The notes under the pieces: model-generated | Told to the model about the DNA's origin: nothing | Databases searched by the model: none | Seen by the model: only the letters and a program-made list of their open reading frames with translations | Virus record (IMG/VR): IMGVR_UViG_3300030098_003492 | Span: 1 to 23,520 of that record | Reading direction: 5' to 3' (one strand) | DNA length: 23,520 nt | Source of the DNA: a virus | Shown here: positions 2,133 to 16,103 of the stretch, piece by piece | Layout of the letters: each line of letters starts with the position of its first letter | How positions within the stretch are numbered: position 1 is the first letter of the stretch | Position numbers and translations under genes: made by a program

Positions 2133-2657
2133 ATGAATATTTTTTACTTGGACCATGATGTAAATAAATGTGCGGAAATGCATTGTGATAAACACGTTGT
2201 CAAAATGATATTAGAATATGCACAAATGCTATGCACGGCACATCATTGTAAAGATACATATATTTGTGAAAAAACATGGTTGCCTAAGAAAGTTAATGCT
2301 GAAAAACTGAATCAATTGTATAAGTCTACACATATGATGCACCCTTCATCAGTATGGGCAAGAGCATCTTTACAACATTACAATTGGTTGTATAATTTAT
2401 TCTGCGCGGTATGTGATGAATATACATATCGTTATGGTAAAGTGCATCTATCAGATAAGAAACTGCGAAAGTTATTATCTGTTCCACCAACACGACTAGA
2501 AGATAATGGTTGGAAACAACCAACACAGGCTATGCCTATGGTGTATAAAATGAATGATAGTATTGACGCGTATAGAAACTATTACATTAAGAGCAAGTTA
2601 AAAAATATAGATATTAAATATACAAAAAGAGATAAACCAGAATGGTTAGGTGAATAA
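2133..2657 (+). CDS. Conserved viral protein, MNIFYLDxD family, unknown function
   Basis: 174 residues. The N-terminus MNIFYLDHDVNKCAEMHCDK, the following HVVKMILEYAQ and the HPSSVWARAS segment look like a family I have seen uncharacterised in marine phages and other large phages; this is recalled, not searched. Conserved-looking His, Cys, Asp and Trp residues (HCDKHVV, HHCKD, HPSSVWAR, PTQAMP, and the C-terminal KRDKPEW) suggest an enzyme or a metal- or nucleic-acid-binding protein, but no reaction can be named. ATG at 2133 follows a GGTGA (2123-2127) that overlaps the stop of the E1-like gene; a GTG 9 nt upstream is part of that ribosome binding site, not the start. Lying between the E1-like and JAB genes, it could be a partner of that pair. 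Confidence 0.8.
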   Translation: MNIFYLDHDVNKCAEMHCDKHVVKMILEYAQMLCTAHHCKDTYICEKTWLPKKVNAEKLNQLYKSTHMMHPSSVWARASLQHYNWLYNLFCAVCDEYTYRYGKVHLSDKKLRKLLSVPPTRLEDNGWKQPTQAMPMVYKMNDSIDAYRNYYIKSKLKNIDIKYTKRDKPEWLGE

Positions 2658-2658
2658 A

Positions 2659-3171
2659 ATGAATGAAAAAGAATATGAAATATATGAAGCAAGAGAGCGA
2701 AGAGAAGATAAGGCGGCATCCTATGATAAGCCAATTCTCGATGGACAATGGCAAAAGTTAAAGGAAAATGTCAATGAGGTTTTCTATGAAGTCGGCAACG
2801 ATTGGGAAAATGAACTATTCCTTGATGCTATTTGGGATGTGTCTGTAAATGAACTACCTGAATTAGAAGTCAGTGTAATTGTAGATTCTCATTTGAATCT
2901 ATTTATTAGCAAGGGAACAGGGTCATTTGTAGATTACGAAAGTGAGAATGTGACAGGAATGCGACTACCGCTATTATGTTGGATTCATACTCACCCATTT
3001 GGCAAGGCATATTTTAGCGGGACTGATTGGAATACAATTAGAACACAAAAACCAATTCTTGAATCCGCAATTGTTCTTGGTAATATGGAAAGAATGAAGT
3101 GGTGGACACAAGAAGGAAAGGAAATGCTATGCAAGACGGAAAAGATTTGTCTAAGCGAGGAAGAAGAGTAA
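2659..3171 (+). CDS. JAB/JAMM (MPN) metalloprotease
   Basis: 170 residues with a complete JAMM zinc motif. H110-T-H112-P is followed by seven residues from H112 to S120, then S120 and D123 (HTHP...FSGTD), matching HxHx7SxxD. The usual upstream Glu is probably within the PELEVSV strand near residues 75-80. Family members are isopeptidases or processing proteases acting on ubiquitin-like proteins (Rpn11, archaeal JAMM1) or on phage tail components. The N-terminal 60 residues are charged and helical. ATG at 2659 is 5 nt after GGTGA (2649-2653); the in-frame GTG at 2650 belongs to the ribosome binding site. The C-terminus is acidic and overlaps the next gene. The linked E1-like gene supports a role in ubiquitin-like protein chemistry, but no ubiquitin-like substrate is visible in the window. 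Confidence 0.85.
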   Translation: MNEKEYEIYEARERREDKAASYDKPILDGQWQKLKENVNEVFYEVGNDWENELFLDAIWDVSVNELPELEVSVIVDSHLNLFISKGTGSFVDYESENVTGMRLPLLCWIHTHPFGKAYFSGTDWNTIRTQKPILESAIVLGNMERMKWWTQEGKEMLCKTEKICLSEEEE

Positions 3172-3769: not shown

Positions 3770-5289
3770 ACTTTGAAGATTTTGCAGATATGAATGAAGC
3801 GTTTTTGTCGAGAACACCGACTCAAATGTTAAAAACAATTGATGAAACAAATTTTGCAGGCAATGAGAAACTTGTGCTAAACTTTTGGGGTAAGACTTAT
3901 CCTAATAGTGGTGTAGGTGAAAAGGTTTTGTTGAAACTTGTTGCAGACTATTGGGATATTGAAGATTTTATCCTTGAAGATATGATTGAAGATACAGGTA
4001 GTCTTGCACAAGCAATTGCTGAATGGGAAAATTCTTTCCCTGAAGAAGTTACCTATCTTGAGGAAGTAGAAAGTTGTCTTTATGCAGGTTCAAGAGAAGA
4101 AGTAATGGAACAATATATGACACTGTTCCCTAATCTAACATCTAACGGGCGAAAGTGGCTTACTGCTTTTGTTCTAAAGGAAACTCGAAATGGGACAGAT
4201 AGCGTATTGGTTAAGAAATCTATTGCTAAGATGTATGGTTTTACAAGTTCTGAAGTAAAGAAGGCTTCAACCTGTTTAAGTTTGGCAGAATTAATTGACC
4301 AAGCAATTGATACAGGATGTTTAGATGTTGTTCCAACCGCAGGAAAATTCATGACACCAATGCTTGCAAAAGATATTCGCAAGGTAAAAGGTGGAATGAA
4401 TATTACAAGTCGTCATTGGTGTGACTACAAGTATGATGGAATTAGAGCGCAGATTCATTATGATGGAAATGCTATTACTATCTTTAATCGAAGAGGCGAT
4501 GACATTACAAGCAAATATCAACGTGACTTAATTCCAATTATTGATGCGGCTTCAGACCCTGTTGATTGGATTGTTGATGGTGAGATTTATCCGATTGATG
4601 CAAATGGAGAACCTGCATCTTTTAGCAATATGGGAAGTAGGATTCACGGAAAAACTGATGAAGTTATTTACCGTAACCCTGTGACAATTCGACTGTTTGA
4701 TTGTTTGATGTATGGTGGACAACCTGTATTTGAGGATGATTTAGATACTCGACTTGAAACATTAAAAATGCATTTTGGAGAAGAATTAATTGCTGAAACC
4801 AAAGAAGTTAATAACCTTGAAGAGATGAAAGAATACTACGAAGAGGCTATTTCCGCAGGGTTTGAAGGAATTATCTTGAAGAATCCTACTGCAACTTATG
4901 ATTTCGGCGCACGTTCAAAGAATTGGTTGAAGTATAAGCCACCTATGGTTGATATGGATTGTTTAGTTACAGGTGCAGTATTAGGAAAAGGCAAGAGAGC
5001 AGGCGTATATGGTTCATATCAAATTGCTATTAGGGATGGAGATAACTTGGTTCACTTTGGAAATGTTGGTTCAGGATTTACTGACGCAGATTTGACATTC
5101 CTAACTGAAAAGTTCAATCAATCAACTGCATCCTCATTAACAAATGAACCAACCCCGATGATTATTGAAGTCAAGGGAGATATGATTACAAAGAACGAAC
5201 AAGGGGAATATGGTTTGCGCTTTCCCCGTTATGTGAAATACCGTGACGATAAAAGTGAACCAACACAATTAAAGGAAGTGTTAGAATGA
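3766..5289 (+). CDS. ATP-dependent DNA ligase
   Basis: 507 residues. Seals nicks in duplex DNA through a ligase-AMP intermediate. The adenylation motif I is KYDGIR with Lys222 as nucleophile. Further motifs follow in order: RRGDD after motif I, IVDGEIYP (motif III), FDCLMYGG (IIIa), EGIILKNP (IV) and WLKYKPP (V). About 200 residues before motif I form the helical DNA-binding domain, and residues after about 405 form the OB fold (VTGAVLGKGKRAGVYGSY). Cellular archaeal ligases are about 550-600 residues, so this is slightly short but complete. The initiating ATG overlaps the stop of the histone-fold gene (ATGA). It most likely joins Okazaki fragments in the viral replisome. Confidence 0.95.
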   Translation: MNFEDFADMNEAFLSRTPTQMLKTIDETNFAGNEKLVLNFWGKTYPNSGVGEKVLLKLVADYWDIEDFILEDMIEDTGSLAQAIAEWENSFPEEVTYLEEVESCLYAGSREEVMEQYMTLFPNLTSNGRKWLTAFVLKETRNGTDSVLVKKSIAKMYGFTSSEVKKASTCLSLAELIDQAIDTGCLDVVPTAGKFMTPMLAKDIRKVKGGMNITSRHWCDYKYDGIRAQIHYDGNAITIFNRRGDDITSKYQRDLIPIIDAASDPVDWIVDGEIYPIDANGEPASFSNMGSRIHGKTDEVIYRNPVTIRLFDCLMYGGQPVFEDDLDTRLETLKMHFGEELIAETKEVNNLEEMKEYYEEAISAGFEGIILKNPTATYDFGARSKNWLKYKPPMVDMDCLVTGAVLGKGKRAGVYGSYQIAIRDGDNLVHFGNVGSGFTDADLTFLTEKFNQSTASSLTNEPTPMIIEVKGDMITKNEQGEYGLRFPRYVKYRDDKSEPTQLKEVLE

Positions 5290-5570
5290 AGATTAAAAAG
5301 ATGAGTAAAGAAAGCATATGCCACTATTGTCATGAAAACTTTAACGGCGTAGAAGAAGGGTTAATTCAAAATTTACCTGATGGTAGCGAAAGTTATTATT
5401 GTTTAAGATGTATTGGTAAACTAATGGTGTATCGAATTGAAGGCGTACTACCACAACATTTGTTTATGGCTTGTGTTGATAAACTAAATGAACCTCTACC
5501 TGAAGAATTACTTAACAATAAAGATGAAAACCAAACTACTCTTGATGACTTTAATGAGGAAGAAGAGTAG
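5286..5570 (+). CDS. Small zinc protein with C-terminal PIP-box-like motif
   Basis: 94 residues. CHYC at about residues 12-15 and CLRC at about 39-42 form a four-cysteine zinc site. Near the C-terminus, in an acidic context, is QTTLDDFN, which matches the archaeal PCNA-interaction consensus Q-x-x-hydrophobic-x-x-aromatic. With a viral PCNA 5.6 kb downstream and DNA ligase just upstream (4-nt overlap), this protein may dock on the clamp as an adaptor for repair, replication or transcription coupling. The zinc ligands and the motif are seen; the interaction is inferred. It is the last gene before the first non-overlapping gap, so it probably ends the first operon. Confidence 0.8.
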   Translation: MKIKKMSKESICHYCHENFNGVEEGLIQNLPDGSESYYCLRCIGKLMVYRIEGVLPQHLFMACVDKLNEPLPEELLNNKDENQTTLDDFNEEEE

Positions 5571-5626: not shown

Positions 5627-5854
5627 ATGCTATGGGATGAATTATTACCTTCTTCGATTATGAGAGAAGGAGATATAATTACTTACGCAACTGACGTTGG
5701 GTTATACATTGACGCTGAAATTGTTAGAGTTACTTGTCCTATTTGTTTAGAGGAATTTATCGGAAGCAAAAGAGAAGCAGGTATTTTCATAACAGGCCAT
5801 TCAAGTTATCATGAATTCGTAGAAGAAAGAGCAGAATATTATGGTGGAATTTAA
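5627..5854 (+). CDS. Small C2H2-type zinc-finger protein
   Basis: 75 residues, probably the first gene of the second operon. CPICLEEF at about residues 37-44 followed 17 residues after its second Cys by HSSYH gives CX2C-X17-HX3H, a C2H2-like zinc finger. The segment TCPICLEEF recurs nearly unchanged in the small protein at 12281-12469 (TCPICVEEF). The N-terminal half looks like beta strands (GDIITYATDVGLYIDAEIV). The ATG follows AAGGT; another ATG at 5622 is in a frame that soon stops. The protein ends GGI. It may be a DNA-binding regulator, but this is not shown. The next gene begins at its stop codon (TAATG). Confidence 0.75.
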   Translation: MLWDELLPSSIMREGDIITYATDVGLYIDAEIVRVTCPICLEEFIGSKREAGIFITGHSSYHEFVEERAEYYGGI

Positions 5855-6267
5855 TGTTTAGAAGAGAACAATTACAAGGAATTTTACTAACCTTAGCAAG
5901 ACCAGAAGTAACTATTTATCGTAGTGAGAAAAGTAAGTCCGGTTATACGATTAGAGTTAGGGTAATGTTCAGGGCTAATAGAGAATTTCTAATCGCCCTA
6001 GAAAGAACACTAAATCAATATGATATTAAAACAATCTTAAGGGAAAAGGAAGGAAGTAATAGACAAGCCCCTGTTCTTATTGTAGGGCAGAAGGCTTCCT
6101 TAAATCTATTAAGAGATTTAATGCCTGAATTACCATGTTCTCATAGTAATTGGGATAAGTTTGATTTAGTTACAGGTTACTTACAAGAAGGTTTACATTT
6201 AGAAGATGATGGAATGGATAGATTGATGAGAGAGATTGAAAATGTTGAGAAACAAACAAACGACTAG
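5854..6267 (+). CDS. Unknown protein, possible degenerate LAGLIDADG-like fold
   Basis: 137 residues. The alternation of strands and helices (GYTIRVRVMFRANREFLIALERTLNQYDI, then APVLIVGQKASLNLLRDLMP) recalls one repeat of a LAGLIDADG-fold protein, including the 'I.I.g..n...L...l' pattern near the C-terminal half. However, no catalytic LAGLIDADG helix is present, so if related it would be a DNA-binding derivative without nuclease activity. I give this only as a weak structural guess. It starts at the stop of the upstream gene and its last 26 nt overlap the ATPase gene. Confidence 0.7.
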   Translation: MFRREQLQGILLTLARPEVTIYRSEKSKSGYTIRVRVMFRANREFLIALERTLNQYDIKTILREKEGSNRQAPVLIVGQKASLNLLRDLMPELPCSHSNWDKFDLVTGYLQEGLHLEDDGMDRLMREIENVEKQTND

Positions 6268-7084
6268 TAAAAATATTATTTTAATTGGTGGGTACGGTAG
6301 TGGTAAAACTACTACTGCTATTGAGATGATGGGTAATCGACCTTATCAAATATATCCGGCTAATGATATTGCTATTGATGACATATATTCTTACCCAAAT
6401 AACCATGGGTTAATCATTGAAGATGTTCATTACAAACCTATGAAAGATAAGATTTTGTCGCTGATACTTATAAACCCTCACATTATTTTAACTTCTCTGA
6501 ACGAAAAAGATGTTTCAAAGACGATTTTAAATATGTGTGTAAGAAAGCGATTAGGTAGAACAGACAAAAGGCAGGATAAGATAAAGGAAGTAGCACCAAA
6601 TTGTATTAAACCTATTGATTTAAATAAGAATATCTATGATATTAACTTTGAACTATTAAAGAACAAGGATAGAAGACAAGTTTTGAAAATTGTGAAACAT
6701 AACAAACCTTCAGATATGCAATTACTATCATGGGTGCAACCAAATGTAGATGTTAGAAGTATAGTATTTGCTGACCATGTTATGAGATTGTGGTCCATTG
6801 ATTACTTTTATGAAATACTAACCTATTCATTAGCAGGGTATTTATCAGGACGACCATCATTCCCAAAGAGAAATACATACAGTCCAGTCCCCAAGATTTG
6901 TTCTAAGTTAGGTTTGAAAACAAGAGATAGTTATTTAGTCAAATCATTTTTAATGAATGATGAATACAAAGAATGGGCTACTAAGAAATTAAGTTCGGAT
7001 GAATGTAAGATACTGAACTTAAAAAAGCCCAGAAAGAAATCTGTAAGAGTAACAAAGATTAATAAAACATTGGGGGATTTCTAA
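6242..7084 (+). CDS. P-loop ATPase, candidate clamp-loader large subunit
   Basis: 280 residues. Walker A is GGYGSGKT at residues 16-23, and LIIEDV near residues 56-61 is the probable Walker B, followed by PHIILTSLNEKD, a sensor-1-like strand. The middle third is helical, with no recognised motif. The C-terminus is basic (KKPRKKSVRV) and ends in NKTLGDF at the last residues, which fits a PIP-box register (N/Q-x-x-L-x-x-F). Archaeal RFC large subunits also end with a basic tail and PIP box. With the RFC small subunit 600 nt downstream, I propose this as a highly reduced RFC large-subunit analogue. The Walker B lacks the canonical DE box, so it may be a different AAA-like ATPase. ATG at 6242 is preferred to TTG at 6236. 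Confidence 0.72.
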   Translation: MLRNKQTTSKNIILIGGYGSGKTTTAIEMMGNRPYQIYPANDIAIDDIYSYPNNHGLIIEDVHYKPMKDKILSLILINPHIILTSLNEKDVSKTILNMCVRKRLGRTDKRQDKIKEVAPNCIKPIDLNKNIYDINFELLKNKDRRQVLKIVKHNKPSDMQLLSWVQPNVDVRSIVFADHVMRLWSIDYFYEILTYSLAGYLSGRPSFPKRNTYSPVPKICSKLGLKTRDSYLVKSFLMNDEYKEWATKKLSSDECKILNLKKPRKKSVRVTKINKTLGDF

Positions 7085-7584: not shown

Positions 7585-7693
7585 ATTATTAGATAAATTA
7601 AATGATAATATTGAAAGGGGAAACAGAATATTAGTGATAGTTACTGCGGTAAATATTGCTACTGTAATTATGATAGGATTAGTGATACTATGA
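7565..7693 (+). CDS. Small single-span membrane protein (42 aa)
   Basis: 42 residues: an N-terminal polar helix (NELLDKLNDNIERGNR) followed by one hydrophobic segment (ILVIVTAVNIATVIMIGLVIL) that runs to the C-terminus. This is a signal-anchor-like single transmembrane protein with no further domain. GGTGA at 7555-7559 lies 5 nt before ATG 7565; a longer frame from 7511 would run through the zinc motif of the upstream gene in another frame and is less likely. It lies between replication genes and overlaps both neighbours. Possible roles such as membrane tethering of replication complexes are speculation. Confidence 0.65.
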   Translation: MMQKTNELLDKLNDNIERGNRILVIVTAVNIATVIMIGLVIL

Positions 7694-8601
7694 ATTGGAC
7701 AGAAAAATATAGACCACAAAGATTAGGCGACATTATTGGACAGCCTAATTTTGTAGAGGATGCAAGAAATTGGGTGAAGGTTGGCGATATGCCTAACGTG
7801 TTAATTTATGGTCCGGCAGGAACAGGTAAAACTTCTGCAGGAATTGTATTAGCGAAACAGTTTTTAGGTAAACATTTCAATACTCACTACAAAGAAATTA
7901 ATGCAAGTCAAGATAGAAAGTTAGATACTATTAGAGAAACAATTACTAACTTTGCTTCTTGGAAACATAACGATGAGGTTCCGTTCAAGGTAATGTTGTT
8001 GGATGAATTTGATGGGATGACCAAAGATTCACAAAGAGCATTAAAGAGAACAATGGAAAGAGCATTTAATGTTAGATTTATTATTACTTGTAATGATGAA
8101 CATAGTGTTGAATATCCAATAAGAAGTCGCTGTGCTAATTATTGGTTCAAACCTCTTAGTGCTAAAACAATGATAGAAATTATTACTGACATTTGTGAGA
8201 AAGAAGATGTTGTGTATAATCCCGCTCATGTTAGTAGTTTTTGTGAATTAGTTGATGGAGATTTAAGACGAGCAATTAACGAAATACAAGCATCGGCTTT
8301 TAGTAAGGTTAGTATTGAAGATAAAGTAAAAGAATTTATGTGTAATTATGTAGAGATTGTGAAAAAATTAAATGGTGATATGAAGAGTAAAGACGAAGCA
8401 CATGGTTTGCTACTGTCCGAAGTATTTCTCGGTCGTAGTGTAAAACAAATTGCTACGAATCTTCATCATACTGTATTAGAAATGGATTTGGATAGAGCGA
8501 TTATGTTTAATAACCTCGCTCGCATTGGTGAAATGGAATGGAGAGCGAAAAGCATGACCCCGAAAGTGTTAGTGTCATGGTTTGTTGCTCAATATTGGTG
8601 A
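7690..8601 (+). CDS. Clamp loader RFC small subunit
   Basis: 303 residues, AAA+ ATPase that loads PCNA onto primed DNA. The N-terminal WTEKYRPQRLGDIIGQ is the RFC box. Walker A is GPAGTGKT at residues 41-48, Walker B is MLLDEFDGMT, sensor 1 is RFIITCNDEHSV, and the arginine-finger SRC motif is RSRCANY. The lid and collar helices follow (DGDLRRAINEIQASA). Archaeal small subunits are about 320 residues, so it is nearly full length. It overlaps the membrane protein gene by 4 nt, and its last codons are TGG TGA, giving a C-terminal Trp. It should work with the viral PCNA at 11178 and perhaps with the ATPase at 6242 as large subunit. Confidence 0.96.
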   Translation: MNWTEKYRPQRLGDIIGQPNFVEDARNWVKVGDMPNVLIYGPAGTGKTSAGIVLAKQFLGKHFNTHYKEINASQDRKLDTIRETITNFASWKHNDEVPFKVMLLDEFDGMTKDSQRALKRTMERAFNVRFIITCNDEHSVEYPIRSRCANYWFKPLSAKTMIEIITDICEKEDVVYNPAHVSSFCELVDGDLRRAINEIQASAFSKVSIEDKVKEFMCNYVEIVKKLNGDMKSKDEAHGLLLSEVFLGRSVKQIATNLHHTVLEMDLDRAIMFNNLARIGEMEWRAKSMTPKVLVSWFVAQYW

Positions 8602-8620: not shown

Positions 8621-9859
8621 ATGAATGAAAGAATAGAAAAGGAATTGAATGCATTGGCAAATAAACTTGGAAAAACAAATGAAGAAATGGTTCAGAAGTA
8701 TAATGATATTGCTGAATCAAACGGGCTTGACCTTGAGAATGATAGGCAAAGTATGGTAGCACTAACGCTAACTCGTAACTTTGTTCGTGGTTCTCTAAAG
8801 GGTGCAAGTAGTGGTGGTTCATCATTTGGTGAAAACGCTTTTGGATTCCTTGTAGGTTCTGAACCTGCAAGAGATGTTCAAGAATGGCGTCGAAAGAATT
8901 TGCTAAGTGATTATCGAACAAATGCAAATACTGTATTTAACGAAGAACGATGTGCTGAAGTTGTATTAACAGATGCAGGCGCATACGAAAAGAGTCAGGT
9001 TGTTGATGGAGATGTTGAAACAAAGAACATTCCACACTTGCCTAATTCAGCAATTGAAGTGGATGAAAATAAATGGATTGTTCCAACAGATAATGTTAAG
9101 GCATTTATGAGTGGCGATAAAAATCCTCGATATGGAAAACCACTACCTGCTGAAGAATGGAGAATGCGAGCGCACTTTATTGGAAAGACTGAAAATGGTG
9201 ACTACCAATATTGGACACTTGGATTAAAGAATGAAGCGGCGAAACAATTCAACATTTCAAACTTTGAATGGTTGCATCTAAATGCTCTCTTCAATGAAGA
9301 TAGAAATGCTTGTTATGGAATTAAGGGACGAACCCTTGCTTCACTACGCTTGAATAAAGACTTGGACCCCGAATCAGATAACTATGTTGATACAAGTGGT
9401 CTATCTATGGAAGATTTACTCGGTGAATGTATGCCTGAATATATTGCAGACTTAATCGAGATTGAAGATTTCCATACTACACAAGCACAAAACCCCGGAA
9501 TGAAATTGGTCATTACCGATGGAATTGTTAGCAGTATGAATTTGAAGGTAAATGAAAAGACGGGCAACCGTGTTATTTGGATTGAACCTGCTGATGCAAA
9601 TTATGGATTTGAAGATGACGATGTTCCAGAATCTACACCATGTTGGGTTCCATCTAATGTGGATATTGATTTTGGTGTCGGTTCTGATGTGATTATTATT
9701 GGTCGCACAAATCAAACACAAAAGCGTGATGAAGATGGAAATTATCTTGAAGATGAATGGAACCCTGTGTCCCTAAATATCTATGGGATTTTCCCTCGCG
9801 TTGCACTCGGCGCACCTGTTGGTGAAACTGTTGAAGAAAACGACGTAGATTTCTGGTGA
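8621..9859 (+). CDS. ssDNA-binding protein, RPA-like (probable)
   Basis: 412 residues. Its N-terminal helices (about residues 1-60, NALANKLGKTNEEMVQKYND), a Gly/Ser-rich linker (KGASSGGSSFGENAFGF), and two or more beta-rich stretches that could be OB folds (about 130-230 and 290-400, the last with WIPADANYGF and VIIIGRTNQ) fit a viral replication protein A. Position between RFC and RecA/PCNA genes supports this. Zinc ligands are not obvious. The C-terminus is acidic with a terminal aromatic pair (EENDVDFW), like the tails of bacterial SSB and phage T7 gp2.5, which recruit replication proteins. GGTGA at 8611-8615 sets ATG 8621. The OB assignment is inferred; a structural protein is the alternative. 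Confidence 0.6.
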   Translation: MNERIEKELNALANKLGKTNEEMVQKYNDIAESNGLDLENDRQSMVALTLTRNFVRGSLKGASSGGSSFGENAFGFLVGSEPARDVQEWRRKNLLSDYRTNANTVFNEERCAEVVLTDAGAYEKSQVVDGDVETKNIPHLPNSAIEVDENKWIVPTDNVKAFMSGDKNPRYGKPLPAEEWRMRAHFIGKTENGDYQYWTLGLKNEAAKQFNISNFEWLHLNALFNEDRNACYGIKGRTLASLRLNKDLDPESDNYVDTSGLSMEDLLGECMPEYIADLIEIEDFHTTQAQNPGMKLVITDGIVSSMNLKVNEKTGNRVIWIEPADANYGFEDDDVPESTPCWVPSNVDIDFGVGSDVIIIGRTNQTQKRDEDGNYLEDEWNPVSLNIYGIFPRVALGAPVGETVEENDVDFW

Positions 9860-11177: not shown

Positions 11178-11927
11178 ATGAAATTTACAATTAATGGAAA
11201 TAAATTAAAAGAATATATTGAAAGTGCTCTGCTTAAAGGCAAGTGGAATTACGGTCAAGCAAATAAAATGACCACTCTTAATTCGAGCATAATAATTTCT
11301 ATTTCAGATGAACCTTTTATTTGTAATGGTGACCATTCATCATATGTTAAAACTAAAATACAAATAGAAGATGAGTTTGAAAAAGGAAGAGTAACTTTAG
11401 ATACTGATATGTTGTTAAAATATCTAAGAAATGATAACTATACTTTTACATTGAAAGATAATACACTAACACTTGTATCTGGAACAAGAAAGGTAACGAT
11501 GCCCATCTTAGATAGACACCAATATAATGATGCTATTTTAGATGTTAACAAGAACTATGTTCCTCATAATGATATGAATAAGAGTCTTAAAATTAGTAAT
11601 AGAACTGAATTAAAAACTCGCGTCAAAGTTGCTAGTTCTGAATTAGCAGAAGCGTTGAAGGCTTGTGAAGTTGTGGGTAACTCAACATATAAATTAGATT
11701 ATGACGGAGAGAAACTAATAGTATCTTCTAATACAGATAATGAAAATATTGCTGTTGATGTTACTGTAATGGAAAGTTTTGGACCAAAGGCTACAATGGA
11801 ATTTAGTGCGCCTATCCATAAATATTTAGGTAGCGTATCTACAATTTTATCATATAATGATGACTCACCACTTTCGATTATTTGTGGTGGATTTACAATG
11901 TTAAGAGCACCGAGGGTTGCCCAATGA
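11178..11927 (+). CDS. Sliding clamp, PCNA-like
   Basis: 249 residues, the usual PCNA length, in two repeats. The N-terminal repeat begins MKFTINGNKLKEYIES, has the strand-rich pattern of PCNA (DMLLKYLRNDNYTFTLKDNTLTL) and a linker near residues 115-130. The C-terminal end is the clearest mark: HKYLGSVSTIL, DDSPLSII and FTMLRAPRV correspond to the PCNA ends 'YL.......L....PL.i.......YLLAPR'. Sequence is divergent. ATG at 11178 after AAAGGAAGTGA is chosen over an upstream frame start at 11070, which would add 36 unrelated residues across the structured leader. It should form a trimeric ring that tethers polymerase, ligase and nucleases. Confidence 0.8.
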   Translation: MKFTINGNKLKEYIESALLKGKWNYGQANKMTTLNSSIIISISDEPFICNGDHSSYVKTKIQIEDEFEKGRVTLDTDMLLKYLRNDNYTFTLKDNTLTLVSGTRKVTMPILDRHQYNDAILDVNKNYVPHNDMNKSLKISNRTELKTRVKVASSELAEALKACEVVGNSTYKLDYDGEKLIVSSNTDNENIAVDVTVMESFGPKATMEFSAPIHKYLGSVSTILSYNDDSPLSIICGGFTMLRAPRVAQ

Positions 11928-12469: not shown

Positions 12470-12702
12470 GCGAAGAGTTTAGTTATAACAAAACATGGGA
12501 ACAAATTCATACTATGCTTGAGAAAGCAGAAAAGAAACAGAACTATCATTGGATGAAGATTCAAAGAAAGGATACACCTAAGTCAGAAAGGGTGATGCAT
12601 ATGAGAAATTACAAAGGTTTAGAAGGTGTTATCAATGGATTACGTTGGACTCTTGGGGATAGAAAAATGACAGTTGATATAGTGTTAGGTGATAAAGCGT
12701 GA
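12466..12702 (+). CDS. Small basic/aromatic protein, unknown (78 aa)
   Basis: 78 residues, beginning MSEEFSYNKTWEQIHTMLEK. It contains a helical N-terminal half rich in Lys, a His/Trp-rich middle (QNYHWMKIQRKD) and a short beta-like end (KMTVDIVLGD). No domain recognised. The ATG overlaps the preceding stop (ATGA), and a GGTGA near its end (12688-12692) serves the next gene, which starts with GTG. Confidence 0.7.
   Translation: MSEEFSYNKTWEQIHTMLEKAEKKQNYHWMKIQRKDTPKSERVMHMRNYKGLEGVINGLRWTLGDRKMTVDIVLGDKA
12688..12701 (+). promoter_or_regulatory. GGTGA ribosome binding site deciding a GTG start
   Basis: GGTGA at 12688-12692 lies 6 nt before GTG 12699. This supports GTG as the start of the IMPDH/GMP reductase-like gene, whose family N-terminus (KLTFDDISIVPRYSE) begins at once after it; there is no ATG at a suitable place. 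Confidence 0.7.
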
Positions 12703-13697
12703 AATTAACATTTGACGATATTAGTATTGTACCAAGATATTCCGAAATAACTTCAAGAAGTCTTTGCGACACATCAACTAAGATTGGTGATATTGAATTA
12801 GGAACACCATTAATTGCTTCTCCTATGGACACAGTTTGTGGCATAGATATGGCTAAGAGAATAGATGAATTAGGCGGTATTGGAATCTTACATAGATTTT
12901 GTAGTGTTGAAGATAACATTGAAAACGGAAGATGGTTGTTCGATAACTATATTGATTATGGTTTAGCAGTAGGTGTTACTAATCACGAAGGCATACAAAT
13001 GTCCTTGGATAATCTAAATCCAAGATTAGTTTGTATTGATGTAGCACATGGTCATCATAAGATGGTCAAAGATACCATTGAATTTATTAAAAATATCAAT
13101 GAAGATATTCATGTGATGGCAGGAAGTATTTGTACAGCGCAAGCCGCCGCAGATTTAGAATCTTGGGGTGCAGATTCTTTAAGAGTCGGCGTCGGAAATG
13201 GTTCTATGTGTGAAACAAGAATTAGAGCAGGTGTTGGTATTCCACAAGTTAACGCAATTATTTCCTGCAAAATTAATTCTTCAATCCCTATTATTGCTGA
13301 TGGTGGGATTAGAACAACAGGTGACGTTGCTAAAGCATTATCTATTGGGGCCGATGCAGTAATGATTGGTTCATTATTTGCAGGGACTAAAGAATCTCCC
13401 GGACATATTCAGAAGATGGGAATGTGGCCTAACGAACAATTATACAAAAAGTATCAAGGTTCAGCATCACTTGATTCTAAAATTGCCCGTGGAGAATCAA
13501 CTAATGTGGAAGGCAATTCAAAAATTATTCCCTACAAAGGAAAAGTAAAGCGTATTGTAGATGATATTAACGATGGACTTCGTTCATGTATGAGTTATGT
13601 TGGTGCAAATAATATTAGAGAACTACAAAAGAATACATCGTTTATTCAAGTTACACAAGCAGGACAAATAGAAGCAAAACCACATGGGTTGTTTTAA
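12699..13697 (+). CDS. IMP dehydrogenase / GMP reductase family enzyme
   Basis: 332-residue TIM barrel. The N-terminal LTFDDISIVPRYSEITSR is the family signature, as are SPMDTV (41-46) and the catalytic loop GNGSMCETR with Cys171 and Thr173. The loop continues RIRAGVGIPQ, which is closer to IMPDH (RIVAGVGVPQ) than to GMP reductase (TGVGYPQ). The flap region (STNVEGNSKIIPYKG) lacks the Arg-Tyr dyad of IMPDH and looks like that of GMP reductase. CBS domains are absent and length matches GMP reductase. Either reaction is possible: IMP to XMP, or GMP to IMP. Viral copies would adjust guanine nucleotide supply during replication. The gene begins with GTG and abuts the DNA polymerase gene. Confidence 0.92.
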   Translation: MKLTFDDISIVPRYSEITSRSLCDTSTKIGDIELGTPLIASPMDTVCGIDMAKRIDELGGIGILHRFCSVEDNIENGRWLFDNYIDYGLAVGVTNHEGIQMSLDNLNPRLVCIDVAHGHHKMVKDTIEFIKNINEDIHVMAGSICTAQAAADLESWGADSLRVGVGNGSMCETRIRAGVGIPQVNAIISCKINSSIPIIADGGIRTTGDVAKALSIGADAVMIGSLFAGTKESPGHIQKMGMWPNEQLYKKYQGSASLDSKIARGESTNVEGNSKIIPYKGKVKRIVDDINDGLRSCMSYVGANNIRELQKNTSFIQVTQAGQIEAKPHGLF

Positions 13698-16103
13698 ATG
13701 ATTATTACAGAAGCAAATAATAAAATTCATCTCCGTTGGAGGGATGATAATAACGTAAGACGATGGGAGGAACATGACTTTTCTCCATACTTTTATATTG
13801 AGAAAGGGTCTGAAATGCCTGAAGTAATAACTTCTTCAACAAGATATGGGACAATGAGAATTCGACCTAATTATACATGGGGTGAATGGGTAAGTTTAGA
13901 TGGCAAAGAATTACTTAAAGTTAGTTTTGAAACATCAGCAGAATTATACAAAGCCCGTGACCATTGGGAAACTACCTACGAGGCAGATATTTCGGTAGCC
14001 CGAAAGTATGCAGTAGATTGTATGGAGGAAGTAAAGGACTATAATTTAAGAAAGTGGTATCTTGATATTGAAACTCAAGTAGGAGGAACATTTAACGATG
14101 CAGTAAATATGTTATGTTTCTATGATTCTTACAGTAAAGAATATACTGTAATGTCTTGGTTCCCTGTTGACCCTCTTCCAGAATATGATAATGTATTAGT
14201 TTATAGTAGCGAAAAAGAACTATTAGAAGCATTTGTTAATTTTATGGAGGAACAAGACCCTGATATGATTATTGGATGGTACGTTTTAGGGTTCGATATT
14301 CCTCACATAATAAAAAGATTGGTAGAGAATGAGATTAACCCACGCAGATTATCCCCTCTAAATGAGGTTAAAGGTGTATCACATAATAAAATATACAATG
14401 TGAACTACACAAATACCTCTCAACCTATCAAGGGAAGAATTACTTACTGTCTAATGACACGCTTTGAACGTTTATGGATTGACTCGCAACGTGGAACATT
14501 ACCATCACTAAGTTTAGACTACTGTTCAAAAGCCTTATTAGGCGATGAAGCAGGAAAAAATAAGTCAGAAGCAAAATTCTCTGATGAGGAATTCTTTCAA
14601 CGCTCATGGTTTGAAGATACTGAAGTATTTATTGAGTATAACAGAGTGGATGTAGAATTGATGGTTCGTATGGATGAAGAAATGAACATTAGTGAAAATG
14701 ATTATGCGCTACAAAAATTGCTAATTTGTCCGTTTGATTGTGTATTTTATAATTCACAAATGGGCGCGGCATATTTTATGCGTCATGCAGATTGGAAAGC
14801 ACCAACAGGTGTTAAAGGAAGCAAAGAAAAATATGAAGCGGCCTTCGTTATGAATCCCGTTGAAGAAAATACTTTCGGCCTACATGATACAATAGCAGTA
14901 TTTGATTTCAAATCTCTTTACCCAAGTATGATGGCGGCAAGAAATATTTCATGGGAAACTATGACACATAAACAGGACGCTTATCAAATTGATTTTAGTG
15001 TTCCGAAGAATCTAAGAGAGTGGGCTAAGGGTTCATCCGATGTGTCATTTGAAAAAGATACGTTAGGGATTTTACCCAAAGCGGTTCTTAGTCTAATGAA
15101 GATGAGAGATGGTTACAAAAAGGCCCGTAAGGAGGCGACTAACGCTGAAGAATACAGAAAATGGGATTCAGCACAGATGGCTACAAAACGAGTTGTAAAT
15201 GCGTTCTATGGTGTTTTAGCAAAAGATGGGTATGGTTGGGGCGATATGAGAATGGCGGCGGCTATTACTGCAAGTGCAAGAGAAGCCATGAGAGCAGTAG
15301 CATTCAAAGCAATTGAGTTTGGTTATGATGTGAAATATGGTCATACAGATTCTATCTTTGTTAAGGTAAAAGGTGTGGAAGATGCTAAACAATTATGCAT
15401 TAGATTAAATGATTATATTAGAAATGAAGTATTCAATGATTGCGTTGAGTTAGAATTTGAAAAGTTAGCACAATCGTTCTTCTTATCAAAGAAGAAGAAT
15501 AGGTACTGTGGTTACTTATCTTGGAAAGATGGTAATCATTTAGATGAACCTGAATTCTTTGTGATGGGTTTCGAAATGAAAAAGAGTAACGAAACTAAAT
15601 TGGCAAAAGAATTTCAGAAAACGGTATTAAAAATGGTAGCATCAGGAGAAACAGAAAATGATGTTACAAGTTATGCAAGAAAATTATACAAGAATGTTAA
15701 GACAGGAAAACATGATTTAAATTCTGTCGTTAAAAGAAGTCGTCTTAGAACACCCCTTGAAGAATATAAGACTGTGGCAGGAGGAACCGCAGGTGTTTAT
15801 TACATAAACAATTATACTAATATTCCGGGAATAGATGTAGGCGATAGTTATTATTTCTATGCAGTAGATAATAAAGGAATTGTGGGACACCCAATTAAGT
15901 ATGAATATAGAGGTAGAGTCCGTAGTGTAGAATATATTGCTTGTAAAAAGGTTGATGATGTAATTAAATCATTCCCTGTCAATTGGCAAAAATTAGCCGA
16001 TTCAGAAATTGTTAAGAAGGTTTCTCTTATCTATGATAGTTTAGGATGGGACTTGGTGGGAATTTCAGAATCAGGAAAGCAAACATTATTAAGTGAGTGG
16101 TGA
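13698..16103 (+). CDS. Family B DNA polymerase
   Basis: 801 residues with both exonuclease and polymerase domains. Exo I is LDIET with Asp123 and Glu125; Exo II is GWYVLGFDIP, keeping the Asp but lacking the usual Asn; Exo III is EYNRVDVELM. Polymerase motif A is DFKSLYPS with Asp403, motif B is KRVVNAFYG, and motif C is YGHTDS at about 547-552, where the first Asp of the usual YGDTDS is His549 and the metal-binding Asp551 is kept. The C-terminus ends KQTLLSEW, a PIP box in position and spacing (Q-x-x-L-x-x-W), so the enzyme should bind the viral PCNA. It is the replicative polymerase. The last two codons, TGG TGA, form the ribosome binding site of the next gene. Confidence 0.97.
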   Translation: MIITEANNKIHLRWRDDNNVRRWEEHDFSPYFYIEKGSEMPEVITSSTRYGTMRIRPNYTWGEWVSLDGKELLKVSFETSAELYKARDHWETTYEADISVARKYAVDCMEEVKDYNLRKWYLDIETQVGGTFNDAVNMLCFYDSYSKEYTVMSWFPVDPLPEYDNVLVYSSEKELLEAFVNFMEEQDPDMIIGWYVLGFDIPHIIKRLVENEINPRRLSPLNEVKGVSHNKIYNVNYTNTSQPIKGRITYCLMTRFERLWIDSQRGTLPSLSLDYCSKALLGDEAGKNKSEAKFSDEEFFQRSWFEDTEVFIEYNRVDVELMVRMDEEMNISENDYALQKLLICPFDCVFYNSQMGAAYFMRHADWKAPTGVKGSKEKYEAAFVMNPVEENTFGLHDTIAVFDFKSLYPSMMAARNISWETMTHKQDAYQIDFSVPKNLREWAKGSSDVSFEKDTLGILPKAVLSLMKMRDGYKKARKEATNAEEYRKWDSAQMATKRVVNAFYGVLAKDGYGWGDMRMAAAITASAREAMRAVAFKAIEFGYDVKYGHTDSIFVKVKGVEDAKQLCIRLNDYIRNEVFNDCVELEFEKLAQSFFLSKKKNRYCGYLSWKDGNHLDEPEFFVMGFEMKKSNETKLAKEFQKTVLKMVASGETENDVTSYARKLYKNVKTGKHDLNSVVKRSRLRTPLEEYKTVAGGTAGVYYINNYTNIPGIDVGDSYYFYAVDNKGIVGHPIKYEYRGRVRSVEYIACKKVDDVIKSFPVNWQKLADSEIVKKVSLIYDSLGWDLVGISESGKQTLLSEW

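Follow-up and report, generated by a model that had tools for sequence, protein, structure and literature searches.

A candidate reduced RFC large subunit encoded in the replication cluster of a putative magrovirus

A clamp loader is the machine that places a sliding clamp on DNA. Its large subunit (RFC-L), which takes position A in the complex, is described from several systems. In cellular archaeal RFC-L an RFC box stands at the N-terminus, the lid is full and the C-terminal region is long; our archaeal references were a Natrinema plasmid protein (QCC61207.1, 496 aa) and a Salinibaculum protein (WP_302083812.1, 508 aa). Virus-encoded RFC-L is already known and annotated in haloviruses, namely the druskaviruses HVTV-1 (gp87, 417 aa) and HCTV-1 (gp82), which are tailed archaeal viruses with RFC small subunit (RFC-S) and family B DNA polymerase (PolB) genes. 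The druskavirus RFC-L has a full AAA+ module with RFC box and lid, ends in QSVLDF, is matched directly by RFC-L models (E 1e-54), and is encoded by a gene that is not adjacent to RFC-S. In eukaryotes, Ctf18, Elg1 and Rad24 are alternative A subunits; yeast RFC1 and Ctf18 combine a full AAA+ module with additional domains. At the other extreme of size, the T4 A subunit, gp62, lacks any AAA+ module, so that AAA+ is inessential at position A, and eukaryotic and archaeal loaders can likewise load clamps without the A-subunit ATPase (PMC3331839).

For the marine archaeal magroviruses, published replisome lists contain RFC-S, PCNA, PolB, primase and ligase (PMC10768690), and reviews state that these viruses encode a clamp loader (PMC7544198). 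The magrovirus descriptions that we covered name only RFC-S or a "clamp loader," or make no mention of it. We found no earlier description of a magrovirus large subunit, and a prior annotation may exist. What is new here is a lid-less form of RFC-L.

We analyzed a 23.5-kb virus record (23,520 nt; hereafter, the window). It encodes an ATP-dependent ligase, RFC-S, a clamp, PolB, a primase-like gene and an ERCC4 nuclease, and judging by this gene content the virus fits among the magroviruses. The initial annotation had singled out a P-loop protein with a basic tail and a C-terminal NKTLGDF and had proposed it as a reduced RFC large subunit. The reading frame (ATG at 6242, TAA at 7082-7084, 280 aa), the motif and the tail sequence bear out the description, and the identification is borne out by an RFC-L profile match, the predicted fold, the PIP-like tail and the RFC-S neighbor. 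We put the probability that the gene encodes a reduced position-A (RFC-L) subunit of a virus-encoded clamp loader at about 0.88. Its features are as follows.

6242..7084, + strand: RFC large-subunit-like protein, 280 aa (profile, model and ORF evidence)
6287..6310, + strand: Walker A, GGYGSGKT, residues 16-23 (Lys in 37/39 representative relatives)
6410..6424, + strand: Walker B-like LIIED, residues 57-61 (E60 invariant; residue 61 is D or E)
6491..6538, + strand: sensor 1 and degenerate SRC segment, TSLNEKDVSKTILNMC, residues 84-99 (halovirus RFC-L alignment)
6566..6592, + strand: single lid-position helix, residues 109-117 (RFC proteins have a several-helix lid here)
6629..6829, + strand: collar (domain III), residues 130-196, IYDINFELLKNKDRR...LLSWVQPNV... 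(Natrinema RFC-L match)
6887..7012, + strand: A'-like C-terminal helical part, residues 216-257 (RFC1 and T4 gp62 align here, past the collar)
7061..7081, + strand: PIP-like motif NKTLGDF, residues 274-280, preceded by a basic linker (C-terminal, conserved)

The candidate shares Walker A, the stretch from sensor 1 to SRC, a collar of the form LLxW(I/V)xxN and a C-terminal PIP-like motif with archaeal RFC-L. It differs in that no RFC box precedes the P-loop, about one lid helix is left, and the C-terminal region is short. Like the druskavirus RFC-L it is encoded by a virus, in this case with RFC-S just downstream; yeast RFC1 and Ctf18 are far larger. T4 gp62 and the candidate would both be small position-A proteins with collar and A' parts (the latter by prediction for the candidate), whereas gp62 has no AAA+ module and the candidate keeps a P-loop domain and a C-terminal PIP-like tail (PMC3331839).

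To place the gene in context, we use a family of 88 distinct candidate sequences, found in IMG/VR and in contaminated MAGs. A first set, 81 loci with 62 distinct proteins, came from scans of viral contigs; further scans added a second set of 26 distinct sequences. Four contigs (L084-L087) in MAGs labeled Maricaulis and Altibacter carry the family's virus genes; they are probably misbinned virus contigs and say nothing on the host. The genes that matter for the proposed function lie around the candidate in the window.

5286..5570, + strand: small Cys-containing protein (PIP-like QTTLDDF at 5532-5552)
5854..6267, + strand: conserved 137-aa gene, upstream of the RFC-L candidate and overlapping its start (ORF, relatives' loci)
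7690..8601, + strand: RFC-S, the proposed partner of the candidate (NCBIfam RFC small subunit, E 1.6e-70)
11178..11927, + strand: sliding clamp of the virus (PCNA/beta-like; about 249 aa with the start set by alignment), proposed as the substrate
13698..16103, + strand: family B DNA polymerase (PIP-like tail QTLLSEW at 16080-16100)

RFC-S had been noted as a partner in the same operon, and it does lie in the same gene cluster, on the same strand and 605 nt downstream, with small ORFs between. This arrangement recurs in the relatives: RFC-S is downstream of the candidate in all 76 first-set loci whose contig reaches the RFC-S position, and in 32/33 loci of the second set, where the remaining contig stops 2.1 kb downstream. 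The clamp gene gives weak but consistent matches to processivity-factor and beta/PCNA profiles. Fourteen virus records of 67-97 kb, of undefined completeness, each contain one candidate and one RFC-S, and searching them revealed no further RFC-L-like or canonical RFC-L gene. Per record, the RFC-L family model and the 39-sequence profile of the candidate family (A2) each match once, at different places; the RFC-L family-model match sits at the expected RFC-S position where the record's locus holds RFC-S. The virus therefore appears to carry its own complete two-part clamp loader.

The same neighborhood bears on the strongest of the competing explanations, in which an RFC-L-like subunit has another job: it would join viral or host RFC-S and unload or redirect the host clamp. 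Chains from Ctf18, Elg1 and Rad24 complexes are among the candidate's structural matches, and the direction of the reaction is not something that sequence reveals. Against this, the candidate is the sole RFC-L-like gene in the virus records searched, it sits in a replication cluster with RFC-S, clamp and PolB, and the virus encodes its own clamp. We consider a role of this kind improbable.

The assignment to RFC-L depends on profile rather than single-sequence comparison. No family member scores above a curated cut-off in the family libraries (Pfam, PHROGs and NCBIfam), and searches with single sequences (the same libraries, phmmer against the PDB, and tblastn against phage records) return weak P-loop matches only. 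The NCBIfam RFC-L models reach E 1e-4 at best in any member and do not match the window protein. Even the halovirus RFC-L falls below the NCBIfam RFC-L cut-off, these models spanning full-length cellular RFC-L; the missed cut-off is thus a matter of annotation threshold, which lowers recognizability and not homology. Annotation saw only the small subunit because no library model recognizes the large one. A scan with HVTV-1 gp87 as the query returned close kin of gp87 only, and a PDB profile search gave only P-loop proteins (best E 0.02), solved RFC1 being out of sequence reach.

A direct comparison of profiles was more informative. We aligned A2 with an RFC-L reference of four sequences, all haloarchaeal (plasmids) or haloviral (A3), using hhalign. 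The match has a probability of 96.7% (E 3.2e-10) and spans 198 columns, beginning at Walker A and extending through the collar. The alignment of A2 with the virus's own RFC-S (A4) is limited to 23 P-loop columns, and the scores of the reversed and PCNA controls are close to zero. The contrast between 198 and 23 columns indicates a match to the large subunit and not to clamp loaders generally; the profile search against RFC large subunits that had been suggested as a check therefore points to RFC-L specifically. The C-terminal half alone aligns exactly at domain III of RFC-L with a score of 28.9, compared with at most about 20 for 30 column shuffles and 17.9 for RFC-S. At the level of residues, TSLNEKDVSKTILNMC of the candidate aligns without gaps to halovirus RFC-L LTANEEYDVPDGIKNRV, its collar IYDINFELLKNKDRR...LLSWVQPNV... 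matches GIFDFLDELIKEKD...LLNWIEDNV of the Natrinema RFC-L, and a local alignment pairs IYDINFELLKNKDRRQVLKIVKHNKPSDMQLLSWVQPNV with Natrinema IFDFLDELIKEKDAEGALRASYDVDETPDDLLNWIEDNV.

We used structure prediction to assess the fold. The AF2 model of the 280-aa protein has a pLDDT of 84.7 and a pTM of 0.45, values that indicate confident domains and uncertain packing of the two halves. All of the best 50 Foldseek matches in the PDB come from clamp loaders or their relative MgsA/RarA, with E down to 8.8e-6; the clamp-loader chains are RFC, T4 gp44, and Rad24-, Ctf18- and Elg1-RFC, and human CTF18 (8umv_A) has the top TM-score among the rows listed (0.44). In VIA, T4 gp44 scores higher (Z 12.2) than any RFC1 row but its alignment ends near residue 203, and the T4, RuvB and RFC small-type rows all end near residue 203 or before it. 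The yeast RFC1 rows span residues 4-267 and 4-271 (Z 9.9 and 9.8; 259 and 256 residues aligned), and only RFC1-type chains give a near end-to-end alignment in the PDB.

The C-terminal half was also folded alone (pLDDT 83.3). Foldseek places T4 gp62 first for it, with a best E of 0.3 that is not significant, and VIA returns clamp-loader chains in 37/39 rows (Z 5.5-7.9; the other two rows, 2.3). In this model-based comparison the Z values alone are middling for a helical domain; more telling is that the matches are almost exclusively clamp loaders. The collar matches T4 gp62, RFC and Rad24 chains, and RFC1 rows reach residue 144 of the 154-residue C-terminal model. By these structure matches the protein has both the collar (domain III) and the A'-type C-terminal domain by which an RFC-L is recognized. 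The fold could have turned out to belong to another ATPase class; the model instead is a clamp-loader AAA+ with a collar and an A'-like part.

These data also weigh on a second alternative, that a P-loop protein of another kind (RuvB-like, kinase-like or a helicase loader) gained a PIP-like tail and contacts the clamp independently of RFC-S. Single members do weakly match many unrelated P-loop families, and RuvB is near the top for the ATPase half in VIA. However, the profile match runs past the ATPase into the RFC-L collar, and the C-terminal half alone yields almost only clamp-loader chains; we regard this alternative as less credible still. A RuvB-like identity for the ATPase half, whose RuvB alignment ends at residue 122, was rejected on the collar match.

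The tail of the candidate is basic, KKPRKKSVRVTKINK, and its C-terminal end reads KPRKKSVRVTKINKTLGDF. Its PIP-like motif departs from the canonical form in that N replaces Q and a second aromatic residue is lacking; the canonical Q is present in the tails of many relatives (for example, QQKTLGDYL and QTSLEDF). Reference archaeal and halovirus RFC-Ls likewise carry a C-terminal PIP motif. The proposal of a C-terminal PIP box holds across the family, with a C-terminal L-x-x-[FYW] in 86/88 distinct sequences and slight deviations in the other two. All 62 distinct first-set relatives have L-x-x-[FYW] within their last 8 residues, as do 24/26 second-set sequences at their ends, the exceptions being QPSLEEFYGKTQ and QTKIEEYI; these counts measure conservation among kin sequences, not independent events. 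The background rate is 2.5% in shuffled tails and 4% in other ORFs of at least 100 aa from the same loci.

Small size had been put forward as an unusual feature. At 280 aa this stands, and complete family members are nearly all 273-289 aa, but the protein is not merely small: the RFC box and nearly all of the lid are lost. Walker A starts at residue 16, which leaves no space for an N-terminal RFC box. About 31 residues, with one helix, separate the SRC-like cysteine C99 from I131 of the collar, compared with about 75 in the Natrinema RFC-L. The candidate retains Walker A, a Walker B-like motif and sensor 1, and has no recognizable sensor-2 motif. In the Walker B-like motif an invariant E replaces the usual D, and the SRC arginine is mostly lost in the family; this pattern would fit the end position of the clamp-loader spiral. 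The two representatives without the Walker A lysine have R (L054) and V (L044). Near-identical members from further contigs group with each of them and are otherwise intact.

With these losses one might read the gene as a degenerate, non-functional relic of RFC-L, the lid and N-terminal box being gone and the Walker A lysine missing in two lineages, but near-constant length, invariant motif residues and a conserved tail at identities down to about 38% indicate purifying selection, so that conservation largely refutes this reading and we give it next to no weight.

The best reading of the candidate is a position-A subunit cut down to a minimum, lying between archaeal RFC-L and T4 gp62. It falls outside a gp62-type definition (no AAA+ module), because it keeps a conserved P-loop AAA+ core. 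Having lost the RFC box and almost the entire AAA+ lid, the subunit probably has weak ATPase activity of its own or can do without it. A tentative extension, which we think possible and somewhat less likely than its opposite, is that the protein is an evolutionary intermediate in a stepwise loss of ATPase function in the A subunit, with clamp contact leaning more on the PIP tail. If so, the T4 two-subunit loader could share the same evolutionary route.

We infer assembly with RFC-S, clamp binding and clamp loading from homology, fold, tail and neighborhood. In the proposed mechanism, one RFC-L copy would join four viral RFC-S copies through the collar domains; contact with the viral sliding clamp would be made by the AAA+ remnant together with the PIP-like tail at the C-terminus, and the A'-like part of the C-terminal region would bridge the gap in the spiral to the subunit on the other side. 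ATP hydrolysis for clamp opening and release would come from RFC-S. Once loaded, the clamp would serve as a tether for the viral PolB, whose own tail is PIP-like. With both loader subunits, the predicted replisome of an abundant marine archaeal virus group would be complete, together with polymerase, clamp, ligase and primase. A natural minimal A subunit would also be a test of how much of RFC-L clamp opening and loading needs, a question that the lineages without the Walker A lysine make directly testable.

Other genes of the window carry tails of a similar kind. The other three complete PolBs in the set end in QRSLDEWF, QMKLDEWW and QQSLDEWW. The QTTLDDF of the Cys-rich protein lies near its acidic C-terminus and is conserved in many relatives; the protein had no family match in family searches. 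Given the PIP-like tails of PolB and this protein, it is plausible from the sequences that the viral clamp has more than one PIP-tailed partner.

Adjoining RFC-S is a conserved 411-aa protein (8624-9859), likewise with no match in family searches, whose acidic tail ends in aromatic residues (DFW, DWF or SYW) and is reminiscent, in sequence, of ssDNA-binding proteins. Only a single group of relatives has an IMP dehydrogenase gene within the replication cluster (12699-13697 in the window; Pfam E 6e-86). Pairing of ThiF/E1 with JAB/JAMM proteins is typical of ubiquitin-like or defense-type systems; the window has a ThiF/E1-like gene at 1549-2127 (Pfam E 6e-16) and, nearby at 2650-3171, a JAB/JAMM-like gene (E 5e-4).
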